Under the pieces are notes generated by a model. The model was not told the origin of the DNA and searched no databases. It was given only the letters and a program-made list of their open reading frames with translations. 64,000 bases of DNA, taken from NCBI GenBank assembly GCA_023664305.1, contig JAMPFT010000010.1, forward strand, positions 21,483 through 85,482, written 5' to 3'. This document shows, one piece after another, positions 3,862 through 63,633 of this stretch; the stretch's first letter is position 1, and every line of letters begins with the position of its first letter. The translations under genes and the position numbers were made by a program. Origin of the DNA: a bacterium. Lineage in GTDB: Bacteria > Bacillota > Clostridia > Lachnospirales > Lachnospiraceae.

Positions 3862-3890
3862 GTGTAATTTGAAGAAATACTTGTTATAAT
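3862..3890 (+). promoter_or_regulatory. Promoter of rightward two-component operon
   Basis: GTGTAA (3862-3867), 17-bp spacer, extended -10 TGTTATAAT (TATAAT 3885-3890). The predicted start of transcription falls at the base of the palindrome beginning at 3892, so the transcript would open with a long stem-loop. Confidence 0.6.
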
Positions 3891-3891
3891 A

Positions 3892-4000: not shown

Positions 4001-4030
4001 AGTGTGGGAAAAAGGATTGCAAGGTTGGGG

Positions 4031-4084
4031 GCTGCACCGTCAGGAGTGGAACCGTCAGAAGCTGCACCGTCAGGAGTGGAACCG
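4031..4084. repeat. 30-bp tandem direct repeat, two copies
   Basis: GCTGCACCGTCAGGAGTGGA begins at 4031 and again at 4061, each copy continuing with ACCG; the second copy is partial. It lies between the structured leader and the response-regulator start, inside the presumed untranslated leader. It could be a protein-binding site or a replication-slippage product. Confidence 0.7.
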
Positions 4085-4130
4085 GAAAAATGTGCCCAAA
4101 GGATAAGCATATCAGGGGAAGAGAGTAGAA

Positions 4131-4805: not shown

Positions 4806-5974
4806 GAAATCTTTCTCTGAGAAAAACGATTCTTTTCTATGTGTCGGCAGTATTGCTTTGCAGTTTTCTGCTCTCGGCAGCGATAGCCCGGATTGCCTCG
4901 CGGGCGCAGCAGCGTGTCTGGTGGAATTATGTGGACGAAGAGGCATATTTTAATGCGGTCGAAAAAGAGGAACCTTATTCTGTACCGGATGTCCCGAGAC
5001 CGGGCGCCGATCAGATGACGCCGTCGGACGTTTTTTTGTCGGAGCTTTGCGACTTTTTACAGACTTATACGGTATTGGTTCTGTCTATGGCGGGAAGCTG
5101 CGCGGCAGTATTTCTTTTTTACCGGAATAAGCTGAAAAAGCCGATTGAGGAGCTGGCGTCAGCCTCGAAAAGGATTGCCGAAAATCGTCTGGATTTTTGT
5201 ATCGCCTATGAAAACAGGGATGAAATGGGTGTGCTCTGCAGGGAATTTGAGAGAATGAGGGAGCAGCTTGCCGAGAATAATCGGATATTGTGGAAAAAGA
5301 TGGAGGAGGAAAAGCTTCTTCGGGCGGCGATTGCCCACGATATCCGCGCGCCGCTGTCCGTTTTGAAGGGGTATCAGGAAATGCTGACGGAGTATCTGGC
5401 GAATGCGGACATAGACAGGGAACAGGCGCTGGAAATGCTGTCGGAAAGCGGGCGGCAGATTGAGCGCATGGATGGGTTCGTGGAAACCATGCGAAAAATG
5501 AGCAGTCTGGAAAGCCGGAAGCTGGCGGCCCGGGAGATTTCCGCAGGGCAGCTGGAGGCGGAGATCCGGGCGGAGCTGAACGTTTTGGAAAAAGAGTACG
5601 GAAAGCAGGCCGTCTTACAGGTGCAGGCGTCAAATGAAATGTTTTGCGGAGACAGGGAAGTGATTTTGGAGGTGACGGAAAATCTGCTGTCAAATGCCTT
5701 CCGTTATGCGAAAAGCCAGGTCGAAATCAGGATACGGGCGGAATATTCGGAATTAAATATTTCTGTCAGGGACGATGGAGAGGGATTTGGGGAAGAGGAG
5801 GAAAAAGTTACGGAAGCCTTCTACCGGCAAAATATAAAAGACAGCCTGAAGCATGCGGGAATCGGGATGTATATCAGCAGGCTGTACTGCGAAAAGCATG
5901 GAGGGAAATTAGCGATTGGAAATGAGGAACAGGGAGGGGCTGTGGCGACAGCGACATTCCGTCGGATTGCGTAA
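4793..5974 (+). CDS. Sensor histidine kinase with HAMP domain
   Basis: 393 residues from ATG 4793; an in-frame ATG at 4775 is also open but lies deeper in the upstream gene. Membrane segments are at about 12-33 and 91-110, enclosing a 55-residue extracellular loop. A HAMP-like linker follows (KLKKPIEELASASKRIAENRLD), then the phospho-acceptor box AIAHDIRAPLSVLKGYQ with His 182. N and G1/G2 motifs are present (ENLLSNAFRYA, RDDGEGFG, HAGIGMYISRLYCEKHGG). It pairs with the regulator at 4131. A terminator-like hairpin lies at its 3' end. The signal is unknown. Confidence 0.88.
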   Translation: MDKIRNLSLRKTILFYVSAVLLCSFLLSAAIARIASRAQQRVWWNYVDEEAYFNAVEKEEPYSVPDVPRPGADQMTPSDVFLSELCDFLQTYTVLVLSMAGSCAAVFLFYRNKLKKPIEELASASKRIAENRLDFCIAYENRDEMGVLCREFERMREQLAENNRILWKKMEEEKLLRAAIAHDIRAPLSVLKGYQEMLTEYLANADIDREQALEMLSESGRQIERMDGFVETMRKMSSLESRKLAAREISAGQLEAEIRAELNVLEKEYGKQAVLQVQASNEMFCGDREVILEVTENLLSNAFRYAKSQVEIRIRAEYSELNISVRDDGEGFGEEEEKVTEAFYRQNIKDSLKHAGIGMYISRLYCEKHGGKLAIGNEEQGGAVATATFRRIA

Positions 5975-5993
5975 GCGATCCGGCGTTTTTTCT
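5961..5993 (+). terminator. Rho-independent terminator after histidine kinase
   Basis: CGTCGGAT pairs with ATCCGGCG (one wobble) across a short loop that spans the stop codon, followed by a TTTTTT run. It separates the two-component pair from the exporter genes. Confidence 0.65.
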
Positions 5994-6073
5994 TTCCGTT
6001 GTCTTTTTGTTGTGATTCTTCTTTTATGATGGAACAAATTACTGCAGGCAGCCCAGGTTCCCAGAAAGGGGAA

Positions 6074-6113
6074 AGATTCCCGTAAACGGGACAGATTCCC
6101 GTAAACGGGAATC
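6074..6113 (+). promoter_or_regulatory. Tandem 19-bp dyads upstream of ABC exporter
   Basis: AGATTCCCGTAAACGGGA occurs at 6074-6091 and again at 6093-6110, period 19. The second extends to a perfect dyad, GATTCCCGT-AA-ACGGGAATC. Two direct copies spaced close to two helical turns, 20-40 bases before the permease start, look like a binding site for an OmpR-type regulator dimer pair. The regulator at 4131 is the obvious candidate; this is inference. Confidence 0.6.
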
Positions 6114-6130
6114 GAAAAGGAGGTGTAAAG

Positions 6131-7195
6131 ATGTGCTCCATTTTAATAAGAGAGGTAAAAAATTATATGAAAAAGCCTCTGTTTTGGATTGGTATCGCGG
6201 CCGTTGCCCTTATGGTGTTTCAAAATGTCAGTCCCTATCTGCAGATCCGGTATCTCGCCGAGGGGGAGGAGATTGTGAATGATTACCCGGAAACCTTCCG
6301 CGAGGGGGATGTTTCTGAGGGATATGTGCCGACGGACGAGGAAGCGAGACGGGGAGCCTGGGAAGAATATGTGCAGGAGGTTCTTGTCTCTGAGCTGCAG
6401 ATGAAGCGGGAGGAAGCGCAGGCTGTTCTCCGTGAAACGGCGGGAATGGATATCATGGCAGCTTGCAGATATCTGGAGGAATACCGATATTACGGCGCTT
6501 ACGTTGCTTATGTGGATACAGCCTACCATAAGGGGACACGGGAAGAAATCAACTCTTATATCGCAGGGAAACTGGAGAGCAGGACATTTTCGTATTATTT
6601 TTCAAGGAAATTCGCGGATTTTGCGGGGTTGTCTATGGGATTTCTGGCAACGGTTTTATTTGCCGCTTTATTCGCACAGGATACAAGGAAGAGTAACTAT
6701 GAGCTCCTTCATACAAAGCCTGTCGGCGCGGGGAACTATTTGTTGGGGAAAGCAGGGGGAGGCTTTGCGGTCTGCGTGATGGCGCTTGCGATTCTAAATC
6801 TGGTATTTTTCGGGTTATGCTCGGTATTCACAAAAAGCAGCGGCTTTGAAGTAAAGCTGTCGGATTTCTTACTGGCGACCTGCCTTTATATTCTGCCGAA
6901 TGTGCTGATGATCGTAAGCGTCTACAGTTTGGTTTCGCTGCTGTTTAAAAGCCCGCTGCCAGCAGTCCCGCTTTTGCTCCTGTATATCGTATATTCGAAT
7001 ATGGGAAGCAGGGACACCAACGGCGTGTACGGATATTATGGCAGACCGTTAGCGATTATAGTGCGGTTCCCGGGAGCATTTTTCGATATTTCTCCCCCGC
7101 CGATGGTATTGCTGAACCAGAGCTTTTTAATCTTAGCCTCCGCGGGCATTCTTTTTCTCTCGATGCAGATATGGAAAAGGAGGCGGGTATATTGA
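6131..7195 (+). CDS. ABC-2 type permease, first subunit
   Basis: 354 residues; AAAAGGAGG is at 6115-6123, just before ATG 6131. One N-terminal membrane segment (about 14-32, after KKPLFWIGIAAVALMVFQ) is followed by a hydrophilic, probably extracellular region (to about 165). About five further membrane helices follow (SMGFLATVLFAALFA, AVCVMALAILNLVFFGL and others). This is the ABC-2 exporter plan. It overlaps the next permease gene and precedes an ATPase, forming a three-gene exporter behind a two-component system. Cargo could be a peptide, lipid or drug; nothing in the sequence decides. Confidence 0.8.
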   Translation: MCSILIREVKNYMKKPLFWIGIAAVALMVFQNVSPYLQIRYLAEGEEIVNDYPETFREGDVSEGYVPTDEEARRGAWEEYVQEVLVSELQMKREEAQAVLRETAGMDIMAACRYLEEYRYYGAYVAYVDTAYHKGTREEINSYIAGKLESRTFSYYFSRKFADFAGLSMGFLATVLFAALFAQDTRKSNYELLHTKPVGAGNYLLGKAGGGFAVCVMALAILNLVFFGLCSVFTKSSGFEVKLSDFLLATCLYILPNVLMIVSVYSLVSLLFKSPLPAVPLLLLYIVYSNMGSRDTNGVYGYYGRPLAIIVRFPGAFFDISPPPMVLLNQSFLILASAGILFLSMQIWKRRRVY

Positions 7196-7863
7196 GGCAG
7201 GAAGCAAAAATCTCACTTCCGGTCTACAAGGTTTCCTGTGCAGTTTTTTTCATTGTGATGTTAAGTCTTGTCAGGGGAGTAACCTATTCTTTTGAAGTAG
7301 GGATTGCGTTGGAGACGCCGATGGCGTTGCTTGCAGCCTGCGTCCTCGCAGATACCTATACAAAAGAAATTACCGGAAAGAGGTCGGAAATCTGGCGGTT
7401 GTACCCTATGAAAAAGAAAATGCAAGCTATTTACAGGAGAATTGTGATACAGGAAGTGTTTCTGCTGGCGGCAGCAGTCGTCGGATACGGATTGTTTTTT
7501 CTGTTTCAAAAGCCGAGAACGGTTGACAGGATGCGGTCGGGTTCGGGAAATGAAATGGGGCAGTTTCTTATATACCTTGCCTCCATCGCTGTCACGCTTT
7601 TGTTTTGGGGGCTGTTGTCGAATCTGCTTTCCTGTCTGCTCCGGAATATGTGGTTCGGGATTGGGGGCTGTCTGATCTTATGGGTGATCACAAATTCCAG
7701 TATCGGCGACAGATACTTAGGAGCGTGGAACTTATTTTCCTATACCTTCAGGGATATCGAAAACAGCGGCGATTTCAGCTGGATACGCGGGAAAATAGTC
7801 TGTATCTGTATCAGTGTGATCATGCTGGCAATATTGCCTGAAGCAATCAGGAGGAGGGGCTGA
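7192..7863 (+). CDS. ABC-2 type permease, second subunit
   Basis: 223 residues from TTG 7192, whose TTGA overlaps the upstream stop and which has AAGGAGG at 7177-7183, eight bases away; the ATG at 7171 lies inside the upstream gene without a site. Hydrophobic helices include SCAVFFIVMLSLVRG, PMALLAACVLA, FLLAAAVVGYGLFFLF and a C-terminal VCICISVIMLAILP. A TKEITGKRSEIW(R) segment resembles the cytosolic coupling loop of ABC-2 subunits. It should form a heterodimer with the 6131 product. Confidence 0.75.
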   Translation: MRQEAKISLPVYKVSCAVFFIVMLSLVRGVTYSFEVGIALETPMALLAACVLADTYTKEITGKRSEIWRLYPMKKKMQAIYRRIVIQEVFLLAAAVVGYGLFFLFQKPRTVDRMRSGSGNEMGQFLIYLASIAVTLLFWGLLSNLLSCLLRNMWFGIGGCLILWVITNSSIGDRYLGAWNLFSYTFRDIENSGDFSWIRGKIVCICISVIMLAILPEAIRRRG

Positions 7864-10126: not shown

Positions 10127-10903
10127 TCATGCTGCCGGTTTGATTCCGCGCTTCATGATCCGGTAGGCCTTTTTCCATGGGATCTCACAACAGATTGTTT
10201 TCCTGTGTACCAGCAAAAAACGCAGGGCCATCAGACGCGCCATGCCGCCGTACAGGTATCGGTACAAGACTCCCCTGTCATAAAAAAATTTTTCATGGTA
10301 GCCGGTAAACCATGTGGATTCCCGCACCTTTTCATGCCCGATGCATACGGGTATCTTATAAATACGCAGCCCGGCCTTCAGACAGTCCCGCAGGAACAGG
10401 CTGTCCTCCCCGTTGCTGTATTTTGCGCCGCCGCCAAACAGCAGCGAAAAGGTAATGTTTTCTTCGTGAAGCCGCTTAAGGCGCGCTGCAAAGCTGTATG
10501 TCGGATAACGTCCGCAATTATACCACCGCACCCGGCCGAAGCTTTCGTTGCGGTAGGTTTCCCGCCCCGGCATAGCCTGCACGTTGAAAAGCAGCATATC
10601 CGCCTCGGGATGCGCTGCAAAGGCATTCAGGACGGTCTTTGCATAATCCGGCTCATAGATAATATCCTCATCGGCAAATAAAACCACATCCGCGTCGGCG
10701 CGCTGCAGACTGAAATTGCGACTCAAGCCGACTCCCCGTTCCGCCATGGAGAAAAAACGGAGCCGATGTCCCCGCCATGTCAGCTCCTCGTATCCGTAGT
10801 GATCGCCCTGACTGACAATGACGGCGTCGCTGTCAATCCGCATCTCTTCTGCAAGCTCTTCGGGCGCCCTGTTTACGGCAGCCACTAATAGTTGTAATGT
10901 CAT
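10127..10903 (-). CDS. Glycosyltransferase family 2
   Basis: 258 residues from ATG 10903, which has GGAGG five bases upstream; a longer reading frame to 10951 lacks a site. The fold core shows LQLLVAAVNR, then RGVGLSRNFSLQRADADVVLFADEDIIYEPDY, where ADED serves as the DxD-like metal site. YSNGEDSLFLRDCLKAG matches the ED acid motif expected for catalysis. It is probably a glycan-synthesis enzyme. It is GC-rich, like the neighbouring glycosyltransferase, and unlike the AT-rich acyltransferase beside it. Confidence 0.82.
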   Translation of the reverse strand: MTLQLLVAAVNRAPEELAEEMRIDSDAVIVSQGDHYGYEELTWRGHRLRFFSMAERGVGLSRNFSLQRADADVVLFADEDIIYEPDYAKTVLNAFAAHPEADMLLFNVQAMPGRETYRNESFGRVRWYNCGRYPTYSFAARLKRLHEENITFSLLFGGGAKYSNGEDSLFLRDCLKAGLRIYKIPVCIGHEKVRESTWFTGYHEKFFYDRGVLYRYLYGGMARLMALRFLLVHRKTICCEIPWKKAYRIMKRGIKPAA

Positions 10904-11025
10904 TTCGTCCTCCCTGCCGTCTCCTGTGATGTAAGTGATAATTTGTAACAAGCCGATAACATATTCAATTTATCTTATCATAAAAGATTTGTCCTTTCAA
11001 CGGAATTTCTGCTCTTACGTTTTAC

Positions 11026-12092
11026 CTATATTTTCTCATTTGAAGTTTCGCTGTTTCTGTTCCCTGTTAGAATCTTCCATAACATGGGCAGCCGCATCTT
11101 TAGAAGATAAGCAATCAGGATTAAAACGATCTCGACCAGGATGGGAGCGAAGAGATAGTCTAATAAAGCAAAGACTGCCTTTTTCCCAAATATGACAAGT
11201 ATAATTTTTTCAAAAGCTTCCAAAAAGGCATCATGAGCAACGTATGTAAAGAAGGTAATTGACATCCACCAGGGAAGTTTCTTTCCTGCGAGCGGGAGGA
11301 GATCGCACGCAAACCATATTGCAATAAAAAGTAAAATCTCCGTGATAATATTCCAGAATCGGAATGCCGTAACTAATGTGAAAATGACATATAGCAAGGA
11401 TATTGCAGCAAGCACCTTGTTCCTGACAGCCAATAACTCCCTGCAATTAAGCCCGATATAGCTTCCAACCAGATAGATATCAAGACCGCTTGTGTATGGA
11501 ATATTAATCGCTGAATGTTGTTTGATCAAAATCAGTGCAATTAAGGCAACTAATCCCGTAGGAAATTTTTTCCGGTGGTTATTGAGTAACAGCCAGATGA
11601 CAGGAGCCGCAGCAATAAAGATGATAAGCTCCTGCAAAAACCAAAGGGTATAATATTCGCTGACCCATAGCCACCTTACCCATTCGGAAATTGAAAATCT
11701 GACTATATTGGGGGTGCTCATCAGAGACCTTATTATCGGAATATTTGTTATAACCACATAGTATATATAATAAATCGTACACCAAATAATATAAGGCAGA
11801 ACTACCGTAAATAATCTGGATTTCCATTTGCCTGCAAGGTTTGAAATTGTAAAGGATTTAAAAAATAAAATGCCTGAAATAAAAAAGAACATAGGAACGG
11901 CTATTTGTAAGACATTGGGCCAATAATTTTCGATGGCAAATGTTATTCTCTCAATCACCCCCCTGCTCCTTCTGCTATGCCGTAAGTATCTAAATTATAT
12001 GTGTGGATATAGATAACCAACACGCTGCAAATAAAGGATATAAAGGTAAATTTGTTTCTTATTGTCAATTCATCATTTTTGATAATTTTCAA
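11026..12092 (-). pseudogene. Acyltransferase-3 family protein broken at a G tract
   Basis: From TTG 12092 (AAGGAG just upstream) one frame reads MKIIKNDELTIRNKF, then SVLVIYIHTYN. This is the first helix of acyltransferase-3 proteins with the conserved His, and the frame ends at a six-G run (11963-11958 on this strand). The next frame, open from GTG 11958, continues directly with VIERITFAIENYWP, then VPMFFFISGILFF and about eight more membrane helices. One extra G (seven) would join them into a normal protein of about 355 residues. Family members O-acetylate or succinylate cell-surface sugars. Whether this is true loss, phase variation or a base-calling error cannot be decided here. Confidence 0.75.
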
Positions 12093-12356
12093 AGTTGCTG
12101 CTCCTTTTCCAATGGACTTCCGAAGAAGAATTGTTCTATATTCCGGTGTTAGCCTCGGAAATTCGTTTCCTGTTGCAAGATGACACAGAATGATATTTTT
12201 ATCTTTTTTCGTTGGATATCCTTAATACGATTATAAAGCTTATTTTTAAAGCGGACAACCCTGATATGGAATTTGATCAGTTGCTTTTGGTCAGCTGCTG
12301 CAATCTGTGGAGAGAAAAACAGAAAAACAAACTAACTTAATAGCAGAAAAAATATA

Positions 12357-12385
12357 GTGTAAATGGCTGGATTTTTTGCTATAAT
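12357..12385 (+). promoter_or_regulatory. Promoter of Rpn-like nuclease gene
   Basis: GTGTAA (12357-12362), 17-bp spacer, extended -10 TGCTATAAT (TATAAT 12380-12385). It closely matches the block at 293-333 (both have ATATAGTGTAAA and GGATTTTTTG). The preceding 12093-12356 has no supported gene. Confidence 0.6.
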
Positions 12386-12433
12386 GATAGTGTGATCCAG
12401 TGTGGCGTTACAGTTTGAAAAGGCGGTGAGCAA

Positions 12434-13234
12434 ATGACAAATGAAGAATTGCAGCTGGATAACAGAACGGTAGAGCAGATTGTCGATGATATGGATTTAT
12501 TTGATGGTGATCTGATGTCTATGGTCTTTGATGGTAATATTCCTGCTACGGAGCTTTTGCTAAAGATTATATTAAAACGGGACGATATTACGGTAATAAA
12601 TGTGGTGGGGCAACGAGAATTTCAGAATCCGATAGTGGGTGGACGGAATATTCGTTTGGATATTCTGGCAAAGGACAGCACAGGCAAGAATTATAATGTG
12701 GAGGTACAAAAGAAACCGGAAGGCGCACATATACGCCGTGCGAGGTTTAACAGCAGCATGATGGATTCCCGGATGCTGAAAGAGGGACAGGAGTTTTCGG
12801 AGCTTCAGGATTCTTACATGGTGTTTATTACACAGGCAGATATATTTGGGTATGGGATTCCAATTTATACGATCAATCGTCATTTTGAGGAAATAGACGA
12901 TCTTTTTGATGATGGTTCTCATATCATTTATGTGAATGGCGGATATAAAGGAAATGATGCAGTCGGAAAGCTGATGCATGATTTTGGATGCAGGGAATCA
13001 AAGGATATGTATTATTCCGAACTGGCTAAAGGCGTGAAGCATTTTAAGGAGGAAGAAGGAGGTCGAAGAGCTATGTGTGAAGCGGTTGAGAGATATGCGG
13101 ATCGAAAAAGGCTGGATACTTTGTATGAGGCTGTGAAGAATTTAATGGAAAGCATGAAATTGAGTGCAGAACAAGCGATGGTAGCCTTGAAAATATCTGA
13201 TAATGACAGGGCGATATTACAAAAAAGGCTGTGA
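12434..13234 (+). CDS. Rpn/PD-(D/E)XK family nuclease (putative transposase)
   Basis: 266 residues, start ATG 12434 with AAGGCGG upstream. The N-terminal half holds the nuclease core: GGRNIRLDILAKDSTGKNYNVEVQ gives the metal-binding Asp and the E-x-Q variant of the E-x-K motif. Then follow a helix with ARFNSSMMDSRML and the strand DSYMVFITQADIFG. The C-terminal tail (SAEQAMVALKISDNDRAILQKRL) is typical of these proteins, which are annotated as recombination-promoting nucleases or PD-(D/E)XK transposases. It appears complete and stands alone. Confidence 0.82.
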   Translation: MTNEELQLDNRTVEQIVDDMDLFDGDLMSMVFDGNIPATELLLKIILKRDDITVINVVGQREFQNPIVGGRNIRLDILAKDSTGKNYNVEVQKKPEGAHIRRARFNSSMMDSRMLKEGQEFSELQDSYMVFITQADIFGYGIPIYTINRHFEEIDDLFDDGSHIIYVNGGYKGNDAVGKLMHDFGCRESKDMYYSELAKGVKHFKEEEGGRRAMCEAVERYADRKRLDTLYEAVKNLMESMKLSAEQAMVALKISDNDRAILQKRL

Positions 13235-13370
13235 GTAATTATGTTATCATGGCAACAAAGCTTTGGAAATGTTCTGGAAATGTAATGAAATTAGAAACGG
13301 ATTCAATTATTAAAGTTCTATAATGGCTTAGAAATTTAACAAGAGAACTGTATTTTGGGGGGGGAAGCAG

Positions 13371-54362: not shown

Positions 54363-55770
54363 CAGGAAATATCAACTGATAGAAACTTATAGCCTCTGGA
54401 TGCTGGATATGCTATGTATTACGGTTTCCTATGTGCTGGCGTATCTGATCCGTTTTGCCGAAGAGCCGGGGGCGCTGGGAAGCCGGGAAATCATGCAGAT
54501 TTATGTGCCTTTTCTGCTGTTCTGTATGCTAAACAGTTTTTTTACCAACGAGTATAAACATTTTTTTGAAAGAGGATATTATTATGAGCTCCTGCGTGTC
54601 CTGCGCTATAATCTGATTTTATTTGTGGGAACGGGTTTTTATATTTATGTACTTCGTTTGGAGCTGGAGTTTTCCAGACTGCTTTTGGGATATTTGATTT
54701 TAATCAATACCGTGCTGACCTATTTGGTTCGTGTGACGTTTAAAAAGTACATGAAGCAGCGATATAAAAAGAGTAAGAACAGCGATAAAATTATTGTTGT
54801 GACGGACAGCGGCGAAGTAGAGAGTGTAATGCGCCATATTGAGCAGGATGCGGGATGGAGTTATGAAATTATCGGCATTGCGATTATAGATATTGACAGA
54901 ATCGGGGAGACTGTGGAGGATATTCCCGTTATAGCCGACAGAAACAATGTTGTCGAGGTGGTTCGGCAGAGCGCTGTGGACGTGATTTTCCTGCACAGCC
55001 CTCAGACAAAGTACAGCGACCTGGAGAATCTGATCCAGTCTTTTTTGGCAATGGGTATCATTTGTCATAATTGCATGGAACGGTTCAGCATCGATACACC
55101 CTGCAGCAGTGTAGGAAAGTTTGCGGGACTTCCCGTGATGACCTATCTGAACAATGAGATCGATTACCGGCGGAGGATTGTTAAACGGGTGATGGATATT
55201 TTAGGCGGAGGTATCGGACTGCTTTTTACACTGATTCTGACGCCCTTTGTGGCGCTGGCCATCAAGATCGATTCCCGCGGGCCAGTTTTTTTCTCTCAGA
55301 TCAGGATCGGAAAAAACGGCAGGCGGTTTAGAATGTACAAATTTCGTTCCATGTATGTTGACGCCGAAGAGCGGAAAAAGGATCTGATGGAGCAGAATGA
55401 GATGCAGGGGCTCATGTTTAAGATGAATAAGGATCCCCGGGTTACCCGGGTCGGGAGATTTCTTCGAAAAACGAGCATTGACGAGCTGCCGCAGTTTTGG
55501 AATGTGGTCAAGGGAGATATGAGCTTAGTAGGCACGAGGCCTCCTACTGAGGATGAGTTTGGGCAGTATAACATTTATTATCGGAGAAGACTCAGCATCA
55601 CCCCGGGGCTGACCGGTATGTGGCAAGTCAGCGGACGGAGCGATGTCCGCAATTTTGAGGACGTGGTGAAGCTGGATCTGAAATACATTGACGAGTGGTC
55701 CTTGCGGCAGGATGTGAAAATTCTGCTTCAAACGATAGGAGTGGTGCTGTTTGGGAGGGGGTCAAGGTGA
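54349..55770 (+). CDS. Polyprenyl glycosylphosphotransferase
   Basis: 473 residues. Four N-terminal membrane helices, a Rossmann-like middle (KIIVVTDSGEVESVMRHIEQ), then the sugar transferase domain KRVMDILGGGIGLLFTLILT, GPVFFSQIRIGKNGRRFRMY, KFRSMYVDAEERKKDL, TSIDELPQFWNVVKGDMSLV, GTRPPTEDE. WcaJ/WbaP family, transferring glucose- or galactose-1-P to undecaprenyl phosphate. Last gene of the polysaccharide run. Confidence 0.92.
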   Translation: MNNYNRKYQLIETYSLWMLDMLCITVSYVLAYLIRFAEEPGALGSREIMQIYVPFLLFCMLNSFFTNEYKHFFERGYYYELLRVLRYNLILFVGTGFYIYVLRLELEFSRLLLGYLILINTVLTYLVRVTFKKYMKQRYKKSKNSDKIIVVTDSGEVESVMRHIEQDAGWSYEIIGIAIIDIDRIGETVEDIPVIADRNNVVEVVRQSAVDVIFLHSPQTKYSDLENLIQSFLAMGIICHNCMERFSIDTPCSSVGKFAGLPVMTYLNNEIDYRRRIVKRVMDILGGGIGLLFTLILTPFVALAIKIDSRGPVFFSQIRIGKNGRRFRMYKFRSMYVDAEERKKDLMEQNEMQGLMFKMNKDPRVTRVGRFLRKTSIDELPQFWNVVKGDMSLVGTRPPTEDEFGQYNIYYRRRLSITPGLTGMWQVSGRSDVRNFEDVVKLDLKYIDEWSLRQDVKILLQTIGVVLFGRGSR

Positions 55771-55799
55771 CTACATCTGTCACCGATTCATGATATAAT
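55766..55799 (+). promoter_or_regulatory. Promoter and operator-like dyad of ATPase-AIPR operon
   Basis: GGTGAC (55766-55771) and GTCACC (55779-55784) form an inverted repeat with a 7-bp centre, overlapping the expected -35 region. The extended -10 TGATATAAT has TATAAT at 55794-55799. A repressor binding the dyad would block the promoter. It could also be a weak terminator stem, but no T run follows. Confidence 0.5.
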
Positions 55800-55830
55800 A
55801 AAAATGCAAGAACAGAAAAGAGGGTTTCTT

Positions 55831-57075
55831 TTGAGTATAAGAGTAGATGTCAGTAAATTTGCGAAAATTGAGAGAGCTTCTGTAAGAACAGGTGATTTCC
55901 TGCTGTTTGTAGGAGATAATAACAGTGGGAAAACTTTGATGATGGAGCTTCTGTATGGGATTATAAATATAGTGTCCGAGTGGAACGTGGAAATCGGTTG
56001 TGCTAAAAGCGCGGAGCAGGGAGATATAACTTATATCCGGTTTTCTCATGAATGGTTTGCCGAAATAGAAAGCAGGGTGAACAGCTATCTGCGGGACAAT
56101 AAAAAGAAATTTCTTTTAGACTGTTTTTCCGTAGAAATTCCTGTGGAGGAAATAACAATACATTTTGAGTCTGCAGAAGAAGTATTCTATGTCGGTACGG
56201 TTGCGGAAACGGCGTATCTGGAGAAAGAGTATGCCGATGGCACCAGAGAAAATATTGCAGGTCATGTAACGGGAACGGCGGATGAGATGAAATTACAGCT
56301 TGCTCGGTGCGCCCTGCGGGATATGTTGGGACTGCCCGTGGGAAAAGGGCAGTTGTTCCTCCCGGCAGCACGGGCCGGTCTGCAGATGCTCTACCGGAAT
56401 TTTTTTGTGAATATGCAGGGAAAGGCCGGAATGCCCCTGCCGGTTTATGATTATCTGAAATTTCTGCAGACTTATTCATCCAGAACACAGTTCAGTGAAA
56501 ATGAGGCGGATTTAATAGAATTTGTGAACCGTGAACTGCTGGGCGGAGAAATTGAATATCAGAACGACAGGTTTATGTACCGGGAGGGGGCTTGTTTTAT
56601 TCCTTTGAACATGGCTTCGTCAATGATACATGAGTTATCACCCTTCAGCAGTGTGCTGAAGTCGGAAAGCAGCTACGGATATCTGTACTACGATGAGGTA
56701 GAAAACAGCATCCATCCCATTAAACAGGGAAGTGTCGCAAAAACGTTGATTAGATTCTGTAATCTTGGCAACAAGTTGATTGTTTCAACTCATAGTGATA
56801 CTTTGGCGGGAAGAATGAATAATTTAATCTTAGTGTCGAGGATGAAAAACGTAATCCGAAAAAACGATATCTTGGAGAAAATAAATTGGAGCATGCAGGA
56901 TATGCTTCGACCGGAAAAAACAGTAAATATATATGAATTTAAAAAAAATGAAAAGGGCAGTGTGGTTATCGAGGAATTAGAATTTTTTGATTATCCGAGG
57001 ATCGGCTATGACTTTGGACGATTTAATGAAAATATTGATCTGTTGTACGATGAATCAAACTGTATCATAGGATAG
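55831..57075 (+). CDS. OLD/AAA-like ATPase of candidate defence operon
   Basis: 414 residues from TTG 55831, which has AAAGAGGG six bases upstream; ATG 55804 is open but lies only five bases after the -10 box. Walker A GDNNSGKT (28-35), a long helical insertion (about 80-230), Walker B YLYYDEVENSIHP and the H-loop STHSDTLAGRMNNLI are visible: the SMC/ABC-type fold of OLD and related AAA_15/AAA_21 proteins. No C-terminal TOPRIM is recognisable, so nuclease activity must come from partners, if any. Followed within 7 bases by the next gene. AT-rich, unlike the glycan genes upstream. Confidence 0.8.
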   Translation: MSIRVDVSKFAKIERASVRTGDFLLFVGDNNSGKTLMMELLYGIINIVSEWNVEIGCAKSAEQGDITYIRFSHEWFAEIESRVNSYLRDNKKKFLLDCFSVEIPVEEITIHFESAEEVFYVGTVAETAYLEKEYADGTRENIAGHVTGTADEMKLQLARCALRDMLGLPVGKGQLFLPAARAGLQMLYRNFFVNMQGKAGMPLPVYDYLKFLQTYSSRTQFSENEADLIEFVNRELLGGEIEYQNDRFMYREGACFIPLNMASSMIHELSPFSSVLKSESSYGYLYYDEVENSIHPIKQGSVAKTLIRFCNLGNKLIVSTHSDTLAGRMNNLILVSRMKNVIRKNDILEKINWSMQDMLRPEKTVNIYEFKKNEKGSVVIEELEFFDYPRIGYDFGRFNENIDLLYDESNCIIG

Positions 57076-57082
57076 TTGCCAA

Positions 57083-57763
57083 ATGAAAGCACAAAAGCTA
57101 AAACCGGGAAAGACACATAATAGAACAGCGATGTATTGGTTCGACTATTCCAGAGATATCATTGTGGAAGAAAGACAGACCGATACATTAGACAGGGTCA
57201 TCCTGCATTATACGGTAAGAGACGGGGACAAGGCTTATTTCAGTGAGGAGTATATACCGGAAGGAACTCCGCAGGAAAAAACTAAAAAACCGGATGTTAC
57301 CGCTATTTTGGAAAACGTTACCGAAACAAAAGTAAAATGGTATATTTTTGATTTGAAAGATACGGTTATTCATGCTAAAACGGCGCTGAAGCTCTGTAAC
57401 CAATGGCATAGCGGGATAGAACATATAGAAGAGCAATACTTAAGCGAATTGGACGGATACAGCGTGGAAGGGTCTTTGGGGGTCATAACCAGATATTGGA
57501 GCAGGGAGCTGCTACAAAAAGAAAAGGATACTTATGAGGAAAAAATCAACCGGACTGATGAAAATACTTTGCTTACGGCGAGGAAAAGCATGGCAAAACG
57601 GAATGAATACCGCCAAAGGGTTAAGGCCATTCAATATATTTTGGATGGGATATTTATTGATAATGATGTGTCCGGAGAGGGGATATTCTATGATATCCAT
57701 TATGTATATATGACTACGACCGACAAAATCACATATACTGCAGAAATGACTATAAAATTTTGA
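57083..57763 (+). CDS. Unrecognised 226-residue protein in AIPR operon
   Basis: Starts MKAQKLKPGKTHNRTAMYWF. Predominantly beta-rich and charged in the first half (HYTVRDGDKAYFSEEYIPEG), helical and Lys/Glu-rich in the second (ELLQKEKDTYEEKINR, MAKRNEYRQRVKAIQYILDG). Ends with FYDIHYVYMTTTDKITYTAE. No signal peptide, membrane helix or known motif. Sits between the ATPase (7-base gap) and the AIPR gene (21-base gap), so it should act with them. Confidence 0.75.
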   Translation: MKAQKLKPGKTHNRTAMYWFDYSRDIIVEERQTDTLDRVILHYTVRDGDKAYFSEEYIPEGTPQEKTKKPDVTAILENVTETKVKWYIFDLKDTVIHAKTALKLCNQWHSGIEHIEEQYLSELDGYSVEGSLGVITRYWSRELLQKEKDTYEEKINRTDENTLLTARKSMAKRNEYRQRVKAIQYILDGIFIDNDVSGEGIFYDIHYVYMTTTDKITYTAEMTIKF

Positions 57764-57784
57764 TAAACGGCGGGAGGAATTATT

Positions 57785-59674
57785 GTGTTTGAAAATCCGA
57801 TACTGAAAGCATGGCTTAACGAATACAGCAAAGAGAATGAACTGGCAGAAAACGCCATGTCCGATAACGAGAGAAGATATATCGATTATATCTATTTTTC
57901 ACAAATTCAGCCGGACAGGTTGGACAGGGATTTCGACCTGTTAAATCAGATATGCGATGAGGTGCCTGAAGGGCGGGGGCTGATCGGCATCGCCATAACG
58001 ATGAATGGGCAGTTGCTCTCTACGAAAACAGACATTGACGATATTTTGCAGAAAGACGGTCAAGGTAAGTTTGAGGTATATATTTTGGCCTATAAGGGAA
58101 CATTTTCCGCTGACGAGTTGATTAATGAAATCTATCATAAACGGCAGGACGGTTACAGTTTTTCGGAGATTATCGGTTATTTTCAAACGCAGAAAATCGT
58201 TGCCCGCTGGGAGAATCTTCCCAGCGTAAACGTCGTTTTTGTGGCGGCGGATAAAGCTGAAATTCAAAATATCAAGAACAAAGGATACTCCGTGAGTATC
58301 CAGCAAATTGATGAAGAGAAGCTATATGCTATTGCTCAGACGAACAGGAAGGAATATCAGGCGGCTCTTGAATATAAAGATTCTATTGAATTTGGGAAAT
58401 TGGAAAATGCGGGGCAGGTTTATGTTGTGCTTTGCAATGCAGACAGTCTGGTTCGGATCCTGACAAATGACGACGGATTGATTCGGGCAAGTATATTTGA
58501 CGACAATGTCCGGGATTATCAGGGAGATACGGACGTAAACCAGGAGATGGAAGCGACCCTGTCAACTAATCCTGTAAATTTTGTCCTGTTTAACAATGGA
58601 ATTACGATTGTATGCGATAAGCTCGAATCAAAAAATAAGGAATTGATGATCAAGAATCCCCAGATTGTAAACGGCTGCCAGACATGTAATTCGCTTTATA
58701 AGGTAAAAAGAAAAGGAAGGGACTTGTCTCAGGTTCAGGTAATCGTGAAGGTTATTGAGGCCACCAAACCGGAGGTAACCCAGGGAATTGTCAAGGGAAC
58801 GAACAGACAGAATATCGTTTATGAAGAGGCTTTTGAAACCATTCGACGGTATCACAAGGAGTTGGAAGACTTTTTTAATGTTACGCAGACAGAAGGTTTT
58901 TACAAAGTATATTATGAAAGGCGTTCGAAACAATATGCGAGGGACAATGCGGTAAAACCGTATCAAAAAATCAGCTTCAGAGTACTGATCCAAAGCATGA
59001 TGGCAATGTATATGAACCACGTTGAAATCTCGCATCGGCACGAATCAAAACTTATCAGCGATTACAAGGATAAACTGTTTGTGGAGGGACAGTCTTATTA
59101 TCCTTATTATGTGGCGGCGCTTTTGGCCTCAAATCTGGAGTACATTATGAAGCAGAATCATAGTCTTAGTGACATGAGACCGTACAAGATGCATCTCCTG
59201 TTCCTGATCCAGGAATTGAACATGGGGCCGGCGCCGGATATAGATGATAAGGAAAGGATAGAGGATTATTGCAAAAAGCTGTTGAAGCTGCTGGGTAAAA
59301 CGGAGTATAAAACGACGGTTTTGCAGGCAGCAGGCAGATTTCGGCAAATAATGGCGCAGTGGGTTGCCACAAAGGGATCCAATTACAGATATTTTATAAA
59401 AGATAACCCTGAATTTAAGGATTTCATGTTAAAGGAATTGCGGGGACATACTGCCATGAAGGTTAATTCCAATGTATATACCGGAAAGGTTATGACTGTT
59501 ACTACGGACAAATATGGTAATTTGTTTGGTTTTATTGCATACAAACCAGAAAATATTTATTTTAACGAACTGGATAACCCAGATATGAATATTTCTTATG
59601 AAGGGAAAAAAGTATCGTTTCGCCTGGCCGAGACAGCCGGAAAAATCAGAGGAATTAACGTGAGGGTTTTGTGA
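57785..59674 (+). CDS. AIPR-family protein
   Basis: 629 residues from GTG 57785 with GGGAGG upstream. The AIPR core is clear: SIFDDNVRDYQGDTDVNQEM (236-255), NFVLFNNGITIVCD (265-278), then NPQIVNGCQTCNSLYKVK (291-308). AIPR (Pfam, named for abortive infection phage resistance) proteins often carry an N-terminal PD-(D/E)XK-like region. Here the corresponding segment reads GLIGIAITMNGQLL ... FEVYILAYKGTF, where the usual D and Q/E of the active site appear to be I and A; this alignment is from memory. The rest of the protein is helical. It is the third gene of the operon; no terminator was seen after it. Confidence 0.85.
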   Translation: MFENPILKAWLNEYSKENELAENAMSDNERRYIDYIYFSQIQPDRLDRDFDLLNQICDEVPEGRGLIGIAITMNGQLLSTKTDIDDILQKDGQGKFEVYILAYKGTFSADELINEIYHKRQDGYSFSEIIGYFQTQKIVARWENLPSVNVVFVAADKAEIQNIKNKGYSVSIQQIDEEKLYAIAQTNRKEYQAALEYKDSIEFGKLENAGQVYVVLCNADSLVRILTNDDGLIRASIFDDNVRDYQGDTDVNQEMEATLSTNPVNFVLFNNGITIVCDKLESKNKELMIKNPQIVNGCQTCNSLYKVKRKGRDLSQVQVIVKVIEATKPEVTQGIVKGTNRQNIVYEEAFETIRRYHKELEDFFNVTQTEGFYKVYYERRSKQYARDNAVKPYQKISFRVLIQSMMAMYMNHVEISHRHESKLISDYKDKLFVEGQSYYPYYVAALLASNLEYIMKQNHSLSDMRPYKMHLLFLIQELNMGPAPDIDDKERIEDYCKKLLKLLGKTEYKTTVLQAAGRFRQIMAQWVATKGSNYRYFIKDNPEFKDFMLKELRGHTAMKVNSNVYTGKVMTVTTDKYGNLFGFIAYKPENIYFNELDNPDMNISYEGKKVSFRLAETAGKIRGINVRVL

Positions 59675-59837
59675 TTGGGAAAAAGCTGAAAAGTTTGCGG
59701 TAGCCTTGTCCTGGTATGAGGAATGCAGTATCCTTTCAGGCTGGAACAGGCTGCCGAGCATTTCATCAAAAATTTAGAATATACAGGTGAAAAAAAGATG
59801 GGAAATGATATACTTAAGAATACGGAAAGGAGATTTT

Positions 59838-60164
59838 ATGGAGGATTTCCGGGAGCTGTTGAACCGGAGGAAGCTGATGACGGGAAGAGAGGATAGTGAG
59901 CTGGCGGATTCTGTTCTGGAAGTGAGTATCAGCGCAAATAGGGAAATAGTTGACGAGTTGATAGGAGATGAGAGTATGTACGAAACATTGATGGAGATTA
60001 TGGAGCCGAAGTTGAGAATAAGGGAAGAAAAGGTGCGCATTAAAGAAGCGATTGATTTGCTTCGTGATATTCAACAGACGGATCAAGAAATCAAAAAAGT
60101 AATTATAAAGAGATATAATCTCACAGAAGATGAAGCGGAAGAATATATTTGTAGCGCGGTATGA
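59838..60164 (+). pseudogene. Internally deleted PD-(D/E)XK gene copy
   Basis: 108 residues. After the start (ATG 59838, AAAGGAG upstream) the sequence jumps straight to DFRELLNRRKLM and then follows the last 107 residues of the intact gene at 62163-63011 almost identically. The nuclease core (about 175 residues) is missing. The 5' flank (59751-59835) also matches that of the intact copy. A -10-like TGATATACT precedes it. Inactive as a nuclease. Confidence 0.82.
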
Positions 60165-60246
60165 AGCGTTAATGGAGATTATGGAGCTATAGTGGGGAAG
60201 GTGCGTATCAGAGAAGCGGACGATTTTAATAAAGCATTAAAAGGCC

Positions 60247-60495
60247 CTATCTGTTTGAACGGCATGCCTTTTTCTGATCAGAAATTACGATCTGTTTGAC
60301 CAACTCCGATGCGATGAATGTATCTGCCAGATCAAAGTTTGCCCTCTTCAATATCTTGCGCACCGCCTCTCTGCTGATATCCATCTCCAGTTCCCGGCTT
60401 GCTACTTTCGCGAGCAGTCTGATCGTCCATCTGCAATGTCCTTCCGGAAGAGGCCCTTTCGCCAGACGGACCACGGTCTCCTCCACATTTTTATC
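60247..60495 (-). pseudogene. 3' fragment of IS630-like HTH gene
   Basis: Nearly identical to the C-terminal half of the genes at 61163 and 63094 (KNVEETVVRLAKGPLPEGHC onwards). The homology ends sharply at about 60495, giving way to sequence flanking the PIN toxin gene. The intact N-terminal HTH is lost. Confidence 0.82.
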
Positions 60496-60538
60496 TGTTT
60501 TCTCTTTCGTATTTTTCTGTTTGAAGCGTTTCTCTCCG

Positions 60539-60832
60539 TCAAACATATATGATACAGTCTTCATTATAATCGGAAAGCAATAAATCATGTGTGAGAAATT
60601 TCATTCCCTCTGTTTTTGATTGGCAGATCAAAAGACGATCAAAAGGATCGTTGTGTTTGGGAGCATCATCCGGTCTGATACAATGTTTTATCGCAACCTC
60701 CCAAACGGACGCCGTGCTATAATATATTTCGTTATTCTCATCCATAAGAATTTTCCCTGCTTGCGTCGGCATCTTCGGATCATCTATCAATGCCCAAAGC
60801 GCTATGTGTGTATCAATTAAGACTTTCATCAT
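60539..60832 (-). CDS. PIN-domain toxin with internal deletion
   Basis: 97 residues against about 128 usual. It starts MMKVLIDTHIALWALIDDPK and ends with a normal PIN C-terminus (DPFDRLLICQSK, FLTHD). Between WEVAIKHCIRP and DAPKHNDPFDR about 30 residues of the usual helical segment are missing in frame. All acidic catalytic positions remain. Related to the frameshifted toxin at 641. Overlaps its antitoxin by 4 bases. Activity is doubtful. Confidence 0.72.
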   Translation of the reverse strand: MMKVLIDTHIALWALIDDPKMPTQAGKILMDENNEIYYSTASVWEVAIKHCIRPDDAPKHNDPFDRLLICQSKTEGMKFLTHDLLLSDYNEDCIIYV

Positions 60833-61077
60833 TCTACCCCAAACATTTTTGCAATTTCTGCGTTGCTCTCATCTATATCATAGCCATCCGAGATAAGCTT
60901 GTGTCTTTTCAGGCTTCCCATCCTGCGCGGTCTGCTCTGATATTGAGCCGAACCGCCAACGCTCTCCTTATGTTCCAATGGAAGCACAACCTGCTTTACC
61001 ACTTCTAACAACATTCGCATAGTATCATCTGACAGCCCTTCTATTGTTTTCATAAATTCCATTTGTAATGTTGACAT
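60829..61077 (-). CDS. Antitoxin of PIN toxin
   Basis: 82 residues from ATG 61077; GTG 61086 overlaps the AGGTG site, so the inner ATG is better. N-terminal helices MSTLQMEFMKTIEGLSDDTM and a Gly/Ser linker lead to the C-terminal ISDGYDIDESNAEIAKMFGV, shared with the antitoxin at 378. First gene of the pair; it is followed downstream by the IS630 fragment at 60247. Confidence 0.72.
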   Translation of the reverse strand: MSTLQMEFMKTIEGLSDDTMRMLLEVVKQVVLPLEHKESVGGSAQYQSRPRRMGSLKRHKLISDGYDIDESNAEIAKMFGVE

Positions 61078-61162
61078 CAATGTCACCTCATTCTTATTTT
61101 CTATCTACGCAAAATCGTTATGTCTTTTCTACTGCCATTATAACTATCGGAAAGAAAGATTG

Positions 61163-61702
61163 TTATCTGTTTGAACGGCATGCCTTTTTCTGATCAGAAA
61201 TTACGATCTGTTTGACCAACTCCGATGCGATGAATGTATCTGCCAGATCAAAGTTTGCCCTCTTCAATATCTTGCGCACCGCCTCTCTGCTGATATCCAT
61301 CTCCAGTTCCCGGCTTGCTACTTTCGCGAGCAGTCTGATCGTCCATCTGCAATGTCCTTCCGGAAGAGGCCCTTTCGCCAGACGGACCACGGTCTCCTCC
61401 ACATTTTTGTCTATTTTGCGGGCAGCTCTGACCGGATTGCCTTCTTCGTCTGTCCGAGTGACGGCATGAATCCCGTTTTCGTTGTAAAACCGGGCAAGGA
61501 CCGAAACGGTCGCGGGAGAGACCGCGTATTTCTCGGCGATCTGGTTATGAGAAAGCGTTTCGCCGTGGTTTTCGTCTAAGTCAAGTAATATTTTGCATCT
61601 TTGCACCGCAAACTTCCGTGTGTTTTTATCGGCCGCCATTCTTTCCAGCATAGCGACTTCCTCATCGCTCAATCTTACAATGTGCTTCTTCACTCTCGCC
61701 AT
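61163..61702 (-). CDS. IS630-like transposase N-terminal HTH protein, copy 1
   Basis: 179 residues. HTH_23/HTH_32-type start MARVKKHIVRLSDEEVAMLE, NQIAEKYAVSPATVSVLARF and a second HTH TIRLLAKVASRELEMDISRE with AVRKILKRANFDL. In IS630 family transposases a DDE domain follows; here the reading frame ends after ADTFIASELVKQIVISDQKK and no DDE segment lies downstream. Identical in protein to 63094-63633. It may bind DNA but cannot transpose by itself. Confidence 0.75.
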   Translation of the reverse strand: MARVKKHIVRLSDEEVAMLERMAADKNTRKFAVQRCKILLDLDENHGETLSHNQIAEKYAVSPATVSVLARFYNENGIHAVTRTDEEGNPVRAARKIDKNVEETVVRLAKGPLPEGHCRWTIRLLAKVASRELEMDISREAVRKILKRANFDLADTFIASELVKQIVISDQKKACRSNR

Positions 61703-61887
61703 AGTTTTCTACCGTTTTCTTTCGTATATTTTCTTTGATAACGCTGATAACAGGTATATTATTGTTCAGATACTGGAGATCCTCTATGATGACAATAGCA
61801 TGAATCAAGAGCATTTTCAAGACTTGCCAACATATATTTTCTACAGGAAATCTTTCACTGATCAGTATACGGTATACCAAATGATAA
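61163..61887 (-). mobile_element. IS630-like truncated repeat, copy 1
   Basis: Similarity to 63094-63823 runs from TATCTGTTTGAACGG, the tail of the coding frame (about 61164), to the end of GGTATACCAAATGATAA at 61887. It includes the HTH gene and about 185 bases upstream of it. That flank is more diverged (small indel at about 61770) than the gene. Terminal inverted repeats were not evident. Confidence 0.65.
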
Positions 61888-62162
61888 ATATTCCGGTAAA
61901 TACCTTAATGCTGCTCACATCAATATACTGCTTTCAGAAAACAGATCAAACAGGATGGGGGCAAGCAGCAGGGCGTCATGTGTCAAAGAGATGCGGAAGA
62001 AAGAGTAAAATGGTACAGGGTATGCGATTTCAATACAGTCATTCCGGGGAATAGGGTGACAGATTTGTGTGGGCTGTCGAGCGTTTCATCAAAAATTTAG
62101 AAGATACAGGTGGCAAAAAAGGGTGGGAAATGATATACTTAGGAGTACAGAAGGGAGATTTT

Positions 62163-63011
62163 ATGAAAGAAACGAAAATACAGTGGCATTCGGCTTTTGC
62201 GTCCGCGCTGGGGCTGGATTTTGGGCCGGACAGGGCTGACTTGATATTTGAGAAGGAATACAATCTGAATACCAAGCCGTTGGAAATCGACCTGTTGGTG
62301 ATCAAAAAGGAGGCTTCTTTCCAGATTGCCAGTGAAATAGGGAAGCTGTTTAGAGGGCATAATATCATAGAGTACAAGTCGCCGGAAGACCATTTGGATA
62401 TCGACACCTTTTATAAGACACTGGCATATGCCTGCCTTTACAAAGCTTATGGAAAAACTGTAGATGCCATAAAGGCAGAAGACATTACATTGTCTATCGT
62501 CCGGGAGAAGAAGCCGACAGGGCTTTTCCGCTACTTCACGGAGCATGGGTGTGAAATCGTGGAGTTCGGCGGCGGGATCTACTATTTGGAGGGAAAAGTC
62601 TGGTTTCCAACGCAGATAGTGGTTACGGATGAACTGGATGATGCTTCCCATATCTGGGTGAAAGGGGTATCGGATAACCTGAGCAAAGAGGATTTCCGGG
62701 AGCTGTTGAACCGGAGGAAGCTGATGACGGAAAAAGAGGACAGGGAGCTGGCGGATTCTGTTCTGGAAGTGAGTATTAGCGCAAATAGGGAAATAGTTGA
62801 CGAGTTGATAGGAGATGAGAGCATGTACGAGACATTGATGGAGATTATGGAGCCGAAGTTGAGAATAAGGGAAGAAAAGGTGCGCATTAAAGAAGCGATT
62901 GATTTGCTTCGTGATATTCAACAGACGGATCAAGAAATCAAAAAAGTAATTATAAAGAGATATAATCTCACAGAAGATGAAGCGGAAGAATATATTTGTA
63001 GCGCGGTATGA
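62163..63011 (+). CDS. PD-(D/E)XK nuclease-like protein
   Basis: 282 residues from ATG 62163 with AAGGGAG five bases before. FEKEYNLNTKPLEIDLLVIK and GHNIIEYKSPEDHLDIDTFY give D and E-x-K spaced as in PD-(D/E)XK folds. The C-terminal third is helical (DFRELLNRRKLM, EIMEPKLRIREEKVRIKEAI). Same general class as the gene at 12434 but a different subfamily. The copy at 59838 lacks its core. The HTH element follows it immediately in both places. Confidence 0.78.
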   Translation: MKETKIQWHSAFASALGLDFGPDRADLIFEKEYNLNTKPLEIDLLVIKKEASFQIASEIGKLFRGHNIIEYKSPEDHLDIDTFYKTLAYACLYKAYGKTVDAIKAEDITLSIVREKKPTGLFRYFTEHGCEIVEFGGGIYYLEGKVWFPTQIVVTDELDDASHIWVKGVSDNLSKEDFRELLNRRKLMTEKEDRELADSVLEVSISANREIVDELIGDESMYETLMEIMEPKLRIREEKVRIKEAIDLLRDIQQTDQEIKKVIIKRYNLTEDEAEEYICSAV

Positions 63012-63093
63012 AGCGTTAATGGAGATTATGGAGCTATAGTGGGGAAGGTGCGTATCAGAGAAGCGGACGATTTTAATAAAGCATTAAAAGGCC

Positions 63094-63633
63094 CTATCTG
63101 TTTGAACGGCATGCCTTTTTCTGATCAGAAATTACGATCTGTTTGACCAACTCCGATGCGATGAATGTATCTGCCAGATCAAAGTTTGCCCTCTTCAATA
63201 TCTTGCGCACCGCCTCTCTGCTGATATCCATCTCCAGTTCCCGGCTTGCTACTTTCGCGAGCAGTCTGATCGTCCATCTGCAATGTCCTTCCGGAAGAGG
63301 CCCTTTCGCCAGACGGACCACGGTCTCCTCCACATTTTTGTCTATTTTGCGGGCAGCTCTGACCGGATTGCCTTCTTCGTCTGTCCGAGTGACGGCATGA
63401 ATCCCGTTTTCGTTGTAAAACCGGGCAAGGACCGAAACGGTCGCGGGAGAGACCGCGTATTTCTCGGCGATCTGGTTATGAGAAAGCGTTTCGCCGTGGT
63501 TTTCGTCTAAGTCAAGTAATATTTTGCATCTTTGCACCGCAAACTTCCGTGTGTTTTTATCGGCCGCCATTCTTTCCAGCATAGCGACTTCCTCATCGCT
63601 CAATCTTACAATGTGCTTCTTCACTCTCGCCAT
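63094..63633 (-). CDS. IS630-like transposase N-terminal HTH protein, copy 2
   Basis: 179 residues identical to the 61163 product, including the non-IS630 tail VISDQKKACRSNR. Lies immediately after the intact PD-(D/E)XK gene on the opposite strand, as the truncated copy at 60247 lies after the deleted one at 59838. No DDE domain. Confidence 0.75.
   Translation of the reverse strand: MARVKKHIVRLSDEEVAMLERMAADKNTRKFAVQRCKILLDLDENHGETLSHNQIAEKYAVSPATVSVLARFYNENGIHAVTRTDEEGNPVRAARKIDKNVEETVVRLAKGPLPEGHCRWTIRLLAKVASRELEMDISREAVRKILKRANFDLADTFIASELVKQIVISDQKKACRSNR

Follow-up and report, generated by a model that had tools for sequence, protein, structure and literature searches.

The window analysed here is a stretch of 64,000 nucleotides from contig JAMPFT010000010.1 of a member of the Lachnospiraceae. 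Three consecutive open reading frames (ORFs) on its + strand encode an OLD-like ATPase (protein A), a protein of 226 amino acids (aa; protein B) and an AIPR protein (protein C), which an earlier note on this DNA had put forward as a candidate defence operon. We confirmed the ORFs at 55804-57075 (A), 57083-57763 (B) and 57785-59674 (C). The gaps of 7 and 21 bases between them bear out the tight spacing described there, and the motifs it had listed, GDNNSGKT and STHSD in A and IVNGCQT in C, are all present in the translations. An ORF does lie where the first gene had been placed, but its start has to be moved: instead of ATG 55804 the most likely start is TTG 55831, because a GAGGG box is located 6 bases upstream of it and because A is likewise 414 aa long in five close intact relatives, four of which start with TTG and one with GTG. 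The genes of the A-B-C cassette are:

55831-57075, + strand: gene A, encoding a TOPRIM-less OLD-type ABC ATPase of 414 aa; TTG start within a longer ORF from 55804
57083-57763, + strand: gene B, 226 aa, predicted PD-(D/E)xK nuclease, putative divergent PD-T4-4_B-like partner (residue signature; match to the profile of the B2 family introduced below)
57785-59674, + strand: gene C, 629 aa, AIPR/AbiU-family protein (PF10592, 5.9e-45; AbiU, 1.8e-78; PHROG 1841, 5.4e-49)

Conservation of the three-gene cassette

PADLOC, NCBIfam, Pfam and PHROGs served as family libraries for the protein scans. An alignment of the ATPase was scanned against genome contigs, which yielded 108 relatives; 80 of these, mostly from Lachnospiraceae, were analysed, and their loci were searched with profiles of A, B and C. 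Among these 80 loci the order A-B-C was found in two groups beyond the window, L008-L013 and L015-L019. In the intact sets of the first group A is 75-85% identical to that of the window, in the second 35-36%; between these two cassette clades A and C are 35-44% identical. Including the window there are 11 intact sets (the window and ten loci), with zero internal stops in their 33 coding sequences. Judged by their equal lengths, L013 and L024 are apparently identical with the contigs of G076 and G022, and each was counted once. The other loci of the C-bearing clade were excluded from the intact sets: L011 has a truncated B, L014, L020 and L022 run into contig ends, and L021, L085 and L032 are broken. 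A-C without B was considered as a working form and rejected, as L021 and L085 are internal deletions and L032 is a decayed remnant that has fused with other sequence. By eye, the ATPase remnant of L032 (6423-8348) is in frame with glycoside hydrolase-like sequence.

As far as the sequence reaches (less than 600 bases upstream in L010, L011 and L018), flanking DNA is common only to the pairs L010/L012 and L015/L016, so that the 11 sets represent nine flanking contexts. L008 and L009 share 146 bases (75%) directly before A. The ratio of nonsynonymous to synonymous substitutions (dN/dS) between the window and L008, L009, L010, L012 and L013 lies at 0.08-0.14 in A and 0.13-0.20 in B and is lowest in C, at 0.055-0.07. 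The three genes are a real unit that is conserved as such. The earlier note had regarded its proposal as refuted if the genes were rarely adjacent elsewhere; in fact they stand side by side in all 11 intact sets and in unrelated flanks, mostly within Lachnospiraceae. B as such is rare, occurring in 3 of 150 Lachnospiraceae genomes and 2 of 391 genomes of the class (own genome counted each time). B gave no match in plasmids and phages at E 0.01, and although patterns of A and B were matched in viral contigs, no relatives were confirmed there.

The A-B pair and known two-gene systems

Three motifs of A are conserved in a three-way alignment:

55912-55935, + strand: Walker A GDNNSGKT (G37 and N39-T44 invariant)
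56692-56697, + strand: Walker B Asp-Glu in LYYDEVE (invariant)
56785-56799, + strand: STHSD (invariant; about 90 residues remain after it)

A matches Pfam AAA_15 (6.4e-12); in PADLOC it comes closest to PD-T4-4_A (4.2e-27, best stretch residues 207-419), followed by PDC-M47A (4.5e-19). The AAA_15 and PD-T4-4_A matches support the identification of the first gene product as an OLD-like ATPase. A TOPRIM family is not among its Pfam matches, and the protein ends about 90 residues past STHSD. Comparison of A with PDB sequences gave nothing useful.

Directly behind A a B-family protein is encoded at 21 of the 80 loci and a second type of partner, B2, at 50, together 71; the remaining nine are contig ends, broken or unclear. 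The large ATPase-B2 set (L035-L087) comes mostly from Bacillota, with some Spirochaetota and Planctomycetota. In a tree of A with 77 rows, in which L041 and L051 are labelled B2-type though the B2 gene was not found there, the B2-type ATPases are split from the B-type by a branch with 100% support in the Shimodaira-Hasegawa-like approximate likelihood ratio test (SH-aLRT). With four unclear rows set aside one gain of C suffices, and C apparently joined the A-B pair once, in a mostly Lachnospiraceae lineage. In a Fibrobacter locus (L031) two ATPase genes of the family lie near each other (3843-5021 and 5929-7356), with B after the second only.

The middle protein had been said to match nothing recognisable. 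This holds for family models: Pfam gave nothing up to E 1, and none of the 22 B-family proteins matches the PD-T4-4_B or PDC-M47B models. It does not hold for the conserved residues, as the B family carries an E-D-DxK signature, with E30 in 21 of 22 members and E56, D71, D90, K92 and Q107 in all 22:

57293-57358, + strand: putative catalytic D71...D90-L-K92 of B (alignments A3 and A9)

Of the 50 B2 proteins 39 were aligned and scanned; D77 and E95 are present in all 39, E30 and K97 in 36 each. Such E-D-(D/E)xK patterns in B and B2 fit PD-(D/E)xK nucleases. A profile alignment of B with B2 reached a score of 34.9 (hhalign probability 48.9%), compared with 14.1 for the reversed profile, at most 25.9 in 60 block shuffles and 23.7 (probability 4.2%) for B against the N-termini of cassette C proteins, which served as a control. 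Some B2 members in turn match PD-T4-4_B (best 5.3e-6) and PDC-M47B (best 1.7e-5): among the 39 scanned, at most four match one PD-T4-4_B model, at most six one PDC-M47B model and at most 13 any of the B models. A plasmid-borne pair from Escherichia marmotae is recognised as PD-T4-4 by the models of both proteins (1.3e-262 and 3.1e-108). In alignment A9 the E and D of its partner protein recur in all 12 sequences and the K in nearly all. Searches of PDB sequences gave nothing useful with the B profile and two chance matches only with the B2 profile. B is thus predicted to be a PD-(D/E)xK nuclease distantly related to the PD-T4-4/PDC-M47 partner, and it keeps the E-D-DxK site inside the cassettes.

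Since A is nearest to PD-T4-4_A and B combines the signature with a distant kinship to the PD-T4-4/PDC-M47 partners, sequence comparison places the A-B pair as a divergent member of the known class of ATPase plus PD-(D/E)xK nuclease systems (PD-T4-4/PDC-M47, WonAB). PD-T4-4 and PDC-M47 likewise consist of an OLD-type ATPase followed by a small E-D-(D/E)xK protein, and the cassette A matches PD-T4-4_A, whereas the cassette B matches neither B model. PD-T4-4 is a two-gene operon; in all 11 intact sets an AIPR gene is the third. PDC-M47, on which a literature search was without result, is a PADLOC candidate system. PD-T4-4 was discovered via functional selection in E. coli (Vassallo 2022; PMC9519451) and a review table gives PF13175 and PF11645 for it (PMC10952713).

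WonAB of Vibrio cholerae (PMC12137116) is compared here by its published description. It, too, joins an ABC ATPase of the OLD type to a PD-(D/E)xK nuclease partner and is described as resembling PD-T4-4; A with its ATPase motifs and B with its E-D-(D/E)xK residues correspond to this class. It has two genes and the portion available does not mention AIPR, in contrast to the cassette. WonAB requires the ATPase and the nuclease lysine and is reported to abort infection via translation arrest; as translation stops while genomic DNA stays intact, rRNA or tRNA has been suggested as its target. The nuclease is toxic in excess, and Lon holds its level down. WonB toxicity requires WonA, on which basis the authors exclude simple sequestration (all PMC12137116).

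PARIS, Septu, Gabija and OLD have in common with A the ATPase superfamily (weaker PADLOC matches), but their published partners or domains (DUF4435, HNH, helicase, TOPRIM) are unmatched by Pfam in the cassette proteins. PARIS has a DUF4435 partner (AriB), whereas B is without any Pfam match, and the OLD nuclease has a C-terminal TOPRIM that A lacks among its matches. A-B-C as a set is represented in none of the four family libraries, and we found no description of a three-part form in the (mostly non-subscription) literature on AIPR, AbiU, PD-T4-4, PDC-M47 and WonAB. The earlier statement that the operon fits no named system therefore has to be divided: the A-B pair falls into the PD-T4-4/PDC-M47 class, while an AIPR joined to it is not covered.

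The AIPR protein C

Three regions can be distinguished in C:

57785-58114, + strand: N-terminal nuclease-like domain with lost active-site residues (homology to 11 AIPRs outside cassettes)
58496-59215, + strand: AIPR core, including IVNGCQT (Pfam, residues 238-477)
59462-59671, + strand: putative C-terminal cold-shock-like (OB-fold) stretch (profile and Pfam matches of relatives)

The identification of C as an AIPR protein stands on its PF10592 match, and the PADLOC AbiU match spans residues 157-515. C reached 50.4 bits against the NCBIfam model of MzaE, with a cut-off of 1050, and an assignment to MZA was rejected. Comparison with PDB sequences gave nothing useful. The closest relatives of C outside cassettes are about 20-32% identical. 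For comparison we used 11 such proteins: five from plasmid records (of 57 matching records, 15 of them listed) and six from Lachnospiraceae genomes, the latter being the best-scoring ones outside cassettes, with a seventh (G028) left out. Outside cassettes means that there was no match to an A or B profile in the flanking stretch, which is one-sidedly short for L138, L142 and L143.

In the 11 outside AIPRs the N-terminus is invariant at E33, D70, Q105 and K107 (alignment A8). In cassette C proteins this region is homologous (hhalign probability 97.5%, E 5.8e-12), but here the D and Q are lost in 11 of 11 copies while they are kept in 11 of 11 outside relatives. D is replaced by I, H or Q and Q by A, T or S, the E column holds R or K, and only the group of the window retains K. 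AIPR N-termini showed no relation to the B and B2 profiles, for which they served as negative controls. One source (PMC3506569) assigns a HEPN domain to the AIPR N-terminus. We set this aside: because the invariant residues of the 11 relatives include E, D, Q and K, they suggest a restriction-nuclease-like domain for the nearest AIPR subfamily. One of these proteins, in the region 5880-12129 of L141, has an intact N-terminal motif and lies beside genes that by eye resemble dnd (phosphorothioation) genes.

When PDB was searched with a profile of 12 C-termini, the top 19 of 24 matches were cold-shock domains (best E 0.0041), with variants of a single protein making up many of them. Pfam CSD was matched in 5 of 22 AIPR proteins (best 0.0014). 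These matches weakly support a cold-shock-like tail on the cassette C proteins.

Compared with the AbiU/AIPR family (PF10592, PHROG 1841), the cassette C shares the AIPR core and differs by the absence of the N-terminal D/QxK residues, by the putative cold-shock-like tail and by the operon with A-B. In a tree the C proteins of the cassettes group together as a clade (99/96), and their sister (98/95) is an AIPR encoded on a plasmid of Phocaeicola massiliensis (OY726013; L133). This protein covers 95% of C at 28.5% identity and has a similar tail; it differs in keeping the nuclease-like site and in having no A or B within 5 kb on either side. Intact site and putative cold-shock-like tail are both present in one AIPR (5001-7046 of L133), and an AIPR of this type could be the form ancestral to the cassette C.

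Of 150 Lachnospiraceae genomes (own counted), 24 contain AIPR and 3 contain B, which implies that most AIPRs act without A-B. This would fit an arrangement in which C is the main effector through an activity of its AIPR core rather than of the N-terminal site, A-B being only the sensor that switches C on. Some of the models matched by C are also named after Abi factors (PADLOC AbiU and a PHROG of the Abi alpha-like type), its IVNGCQT is intact and its dN/dS is the lowest of the three cassette proteins. However, A-B pairs without C exist at 9 B-family loci and, as A-B2, at 50 loci, and B retains its nuclease site in the cassettes. We hold C to be an unlikely main effector, giving this about one chance in four.

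C might alternatively be an antitoxin-like or safety part which restrains A-B, so that loss of C would be toxic. Excess WonAB nuclease is toxic and restrained by Lon, according to PMC12137116, and the C-bearing clade shows no intact A-B without C, the loci in question being the broken or contig-end ones named above. On the other hand, intact A-B pairs without C occur just outside this clade, and the need of WonB for WonA, from which the same source excludes simple sequestration, argues against mere restraint. This makes such a role improbable in our view.

Genomic surroundings and possible function

Ten proteins from six loci, out of 92 flank ORFs, were scanned with PADLOC. The flank of L009 holds a PglZ end and a DrmD/BrxH-type helicase, together with a weaker match to a pAgo model; that of L013 holds a cytosine methyltransferase, and L008 gave one weak match. 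At L009 the cassette (10300-13260) thus stands beside a PglZ C-terminal piece and the helicase in a BREX/DISARM-like neighbourhood. The expected nearness of other defence genes was accordingly seen at L009 and L013, but five of the ten scanned proteins had zero PADLOC matches. The remaining flank ORFs were judged by eye only, and many look ordinary.

In the window the gene upstream of A encodes a bacterial sugar transferase (PF02397, 5.5e-68) that ends at 55770. For a promoter of the cassette itself, as claimed before, one element can be read by eye:

55791-55799, + strand: candidate extended -10 element TGATATAAT (by-eye reading, unproven)

A sigma-70 promoter scan lists no site at 55791-55799, and the promoter is unproven. 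The GC content is 0.47-0.55 at 40-50 kb, 0.40-0.43 at 52-55 kb and 0.40-0.43 in the cassette at 56-60 kb. The cassette is therefore AT-richer than the polysaccharide genes at 40-50 kb, as had been noted, but not than the last of them at 52-55 kb, where GC is equal. The duplicated DNA reported downstream is real: 300-base repeats lie at 59841/62688 (98%) and at 60248/61164/63095, and they recur on other contigs of this genome (3.58 Mb, 44 contigs). The region 59787-63633 looks mobile. One 300-base stretch occurs twice, within one ORF of 125 aa and one of 314 aa, and another, encoding an HTH_32 transposase-like fragment, is present in three copies and again on other contigs. At 60539-61086, on the - strand, a PIN-domain ORF (1.5e-6) is preceded by a small ORF; the two resemble a toxin-antitoxin pair and adjoin a transposase-like fragment.

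The repeats next to the window cassette, the many ordinary flanks and the rarity of B would suit a selfish or housekeeping cassette, or a chance gathering by mobile DNA. The fixed gene order, the low dN/dS, the nine contexts and the extent of divergence over which A and C have stayed together speak against this, as does the family that A shares with PD-T4-4. We regard a non-defence explanation as very improbable. The OLD-like ATPase, the AIPR protein and their adjacency in unrelated flanks support the label of candidate defence operon, and from them we infer a defence function.

We propose that the cassette may be a compact abortive-infection system against phages, in which A licenses the nuclease B and in which C, itself dead as a nuclease, binds nucleic acid as a regulator or adaptor; we see this proposal, drawn by analogy, as evenly poised between right and wrong. 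A would sense infection and hold or license B, presumably within a complex. B would be the effector and, once activated, would cut cellular nucleic acid by analogy with WonAB, with rRNA or tRNA as the candidate target suggested there, so that growth would halt ahead of phage production. C would connect A-B with a trigger or substrate consisting of nucleic acid and would not be a second nuclease; this role is proposed because catalytic residues are lost from its nuclease-like domain and because of its cold-shock-like tail. It is conceivable, though we hold it rather doubtful, that a nuclease-type AIPR effector of abortive infection with a cold-shock-like tail was captured by the A-B pair and became a catalytically dead sensor or targeting subunit for nucleic acid, B taking over the nuclease job and C that of recognition. 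If true, this would be a conversion of effector to sensor within a three-part system that is absent from the family libraries searched.

Several observations weigh against this proposal or its parts. The A tree was made by a quick method without bootstrap and with long-branch warnings, e.g. for L031 and L033. The pairwise correlation of the identity matrices of A, B and C, which counts in favour of a conserved unit, is 0.986-0.994 over all pairs; this mostly reflects the split into two clades, and inside the clade of the window the correlation amounts to 0.74-0.90. B is without a Pfam, PADLOC or NCBIfam match and meets only a PHROG at E 0.28; the 22 B-family proteins gave four isolated weak PADLOC matches to unrelated models, and the link from B to PD-T4-4_B runs only via B2, at an hhalign probability of 49%. 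G028, a near AIPR relative outside the 11, has D and K but not Q, and among 24 further AIPR alignment rows judged by eye (row L102 is not the AIPR frame) many distant Lachnospiraceae proteins are without the motif or the domain. Given this variation, cassette copies are not alone in lacking the site. The C tail of the window alone stays below Pfam CSD at E 1.

AIPR is a widespread family named for abortive infection, and our literature searches on AIPR and AbiU found no worked-out experimental mechanism. In the cassette a decayed nuclease-like site, strong selection on the rest of C and a neighbouring predicted nuclease would separate the AIPR core from nuclease activity, so that the role of the core becomes testable in this lineage. 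The WonAB/PD-T4-4 class would thereby be extended to a three-part form, and the unannotated B family gains a predicted function.

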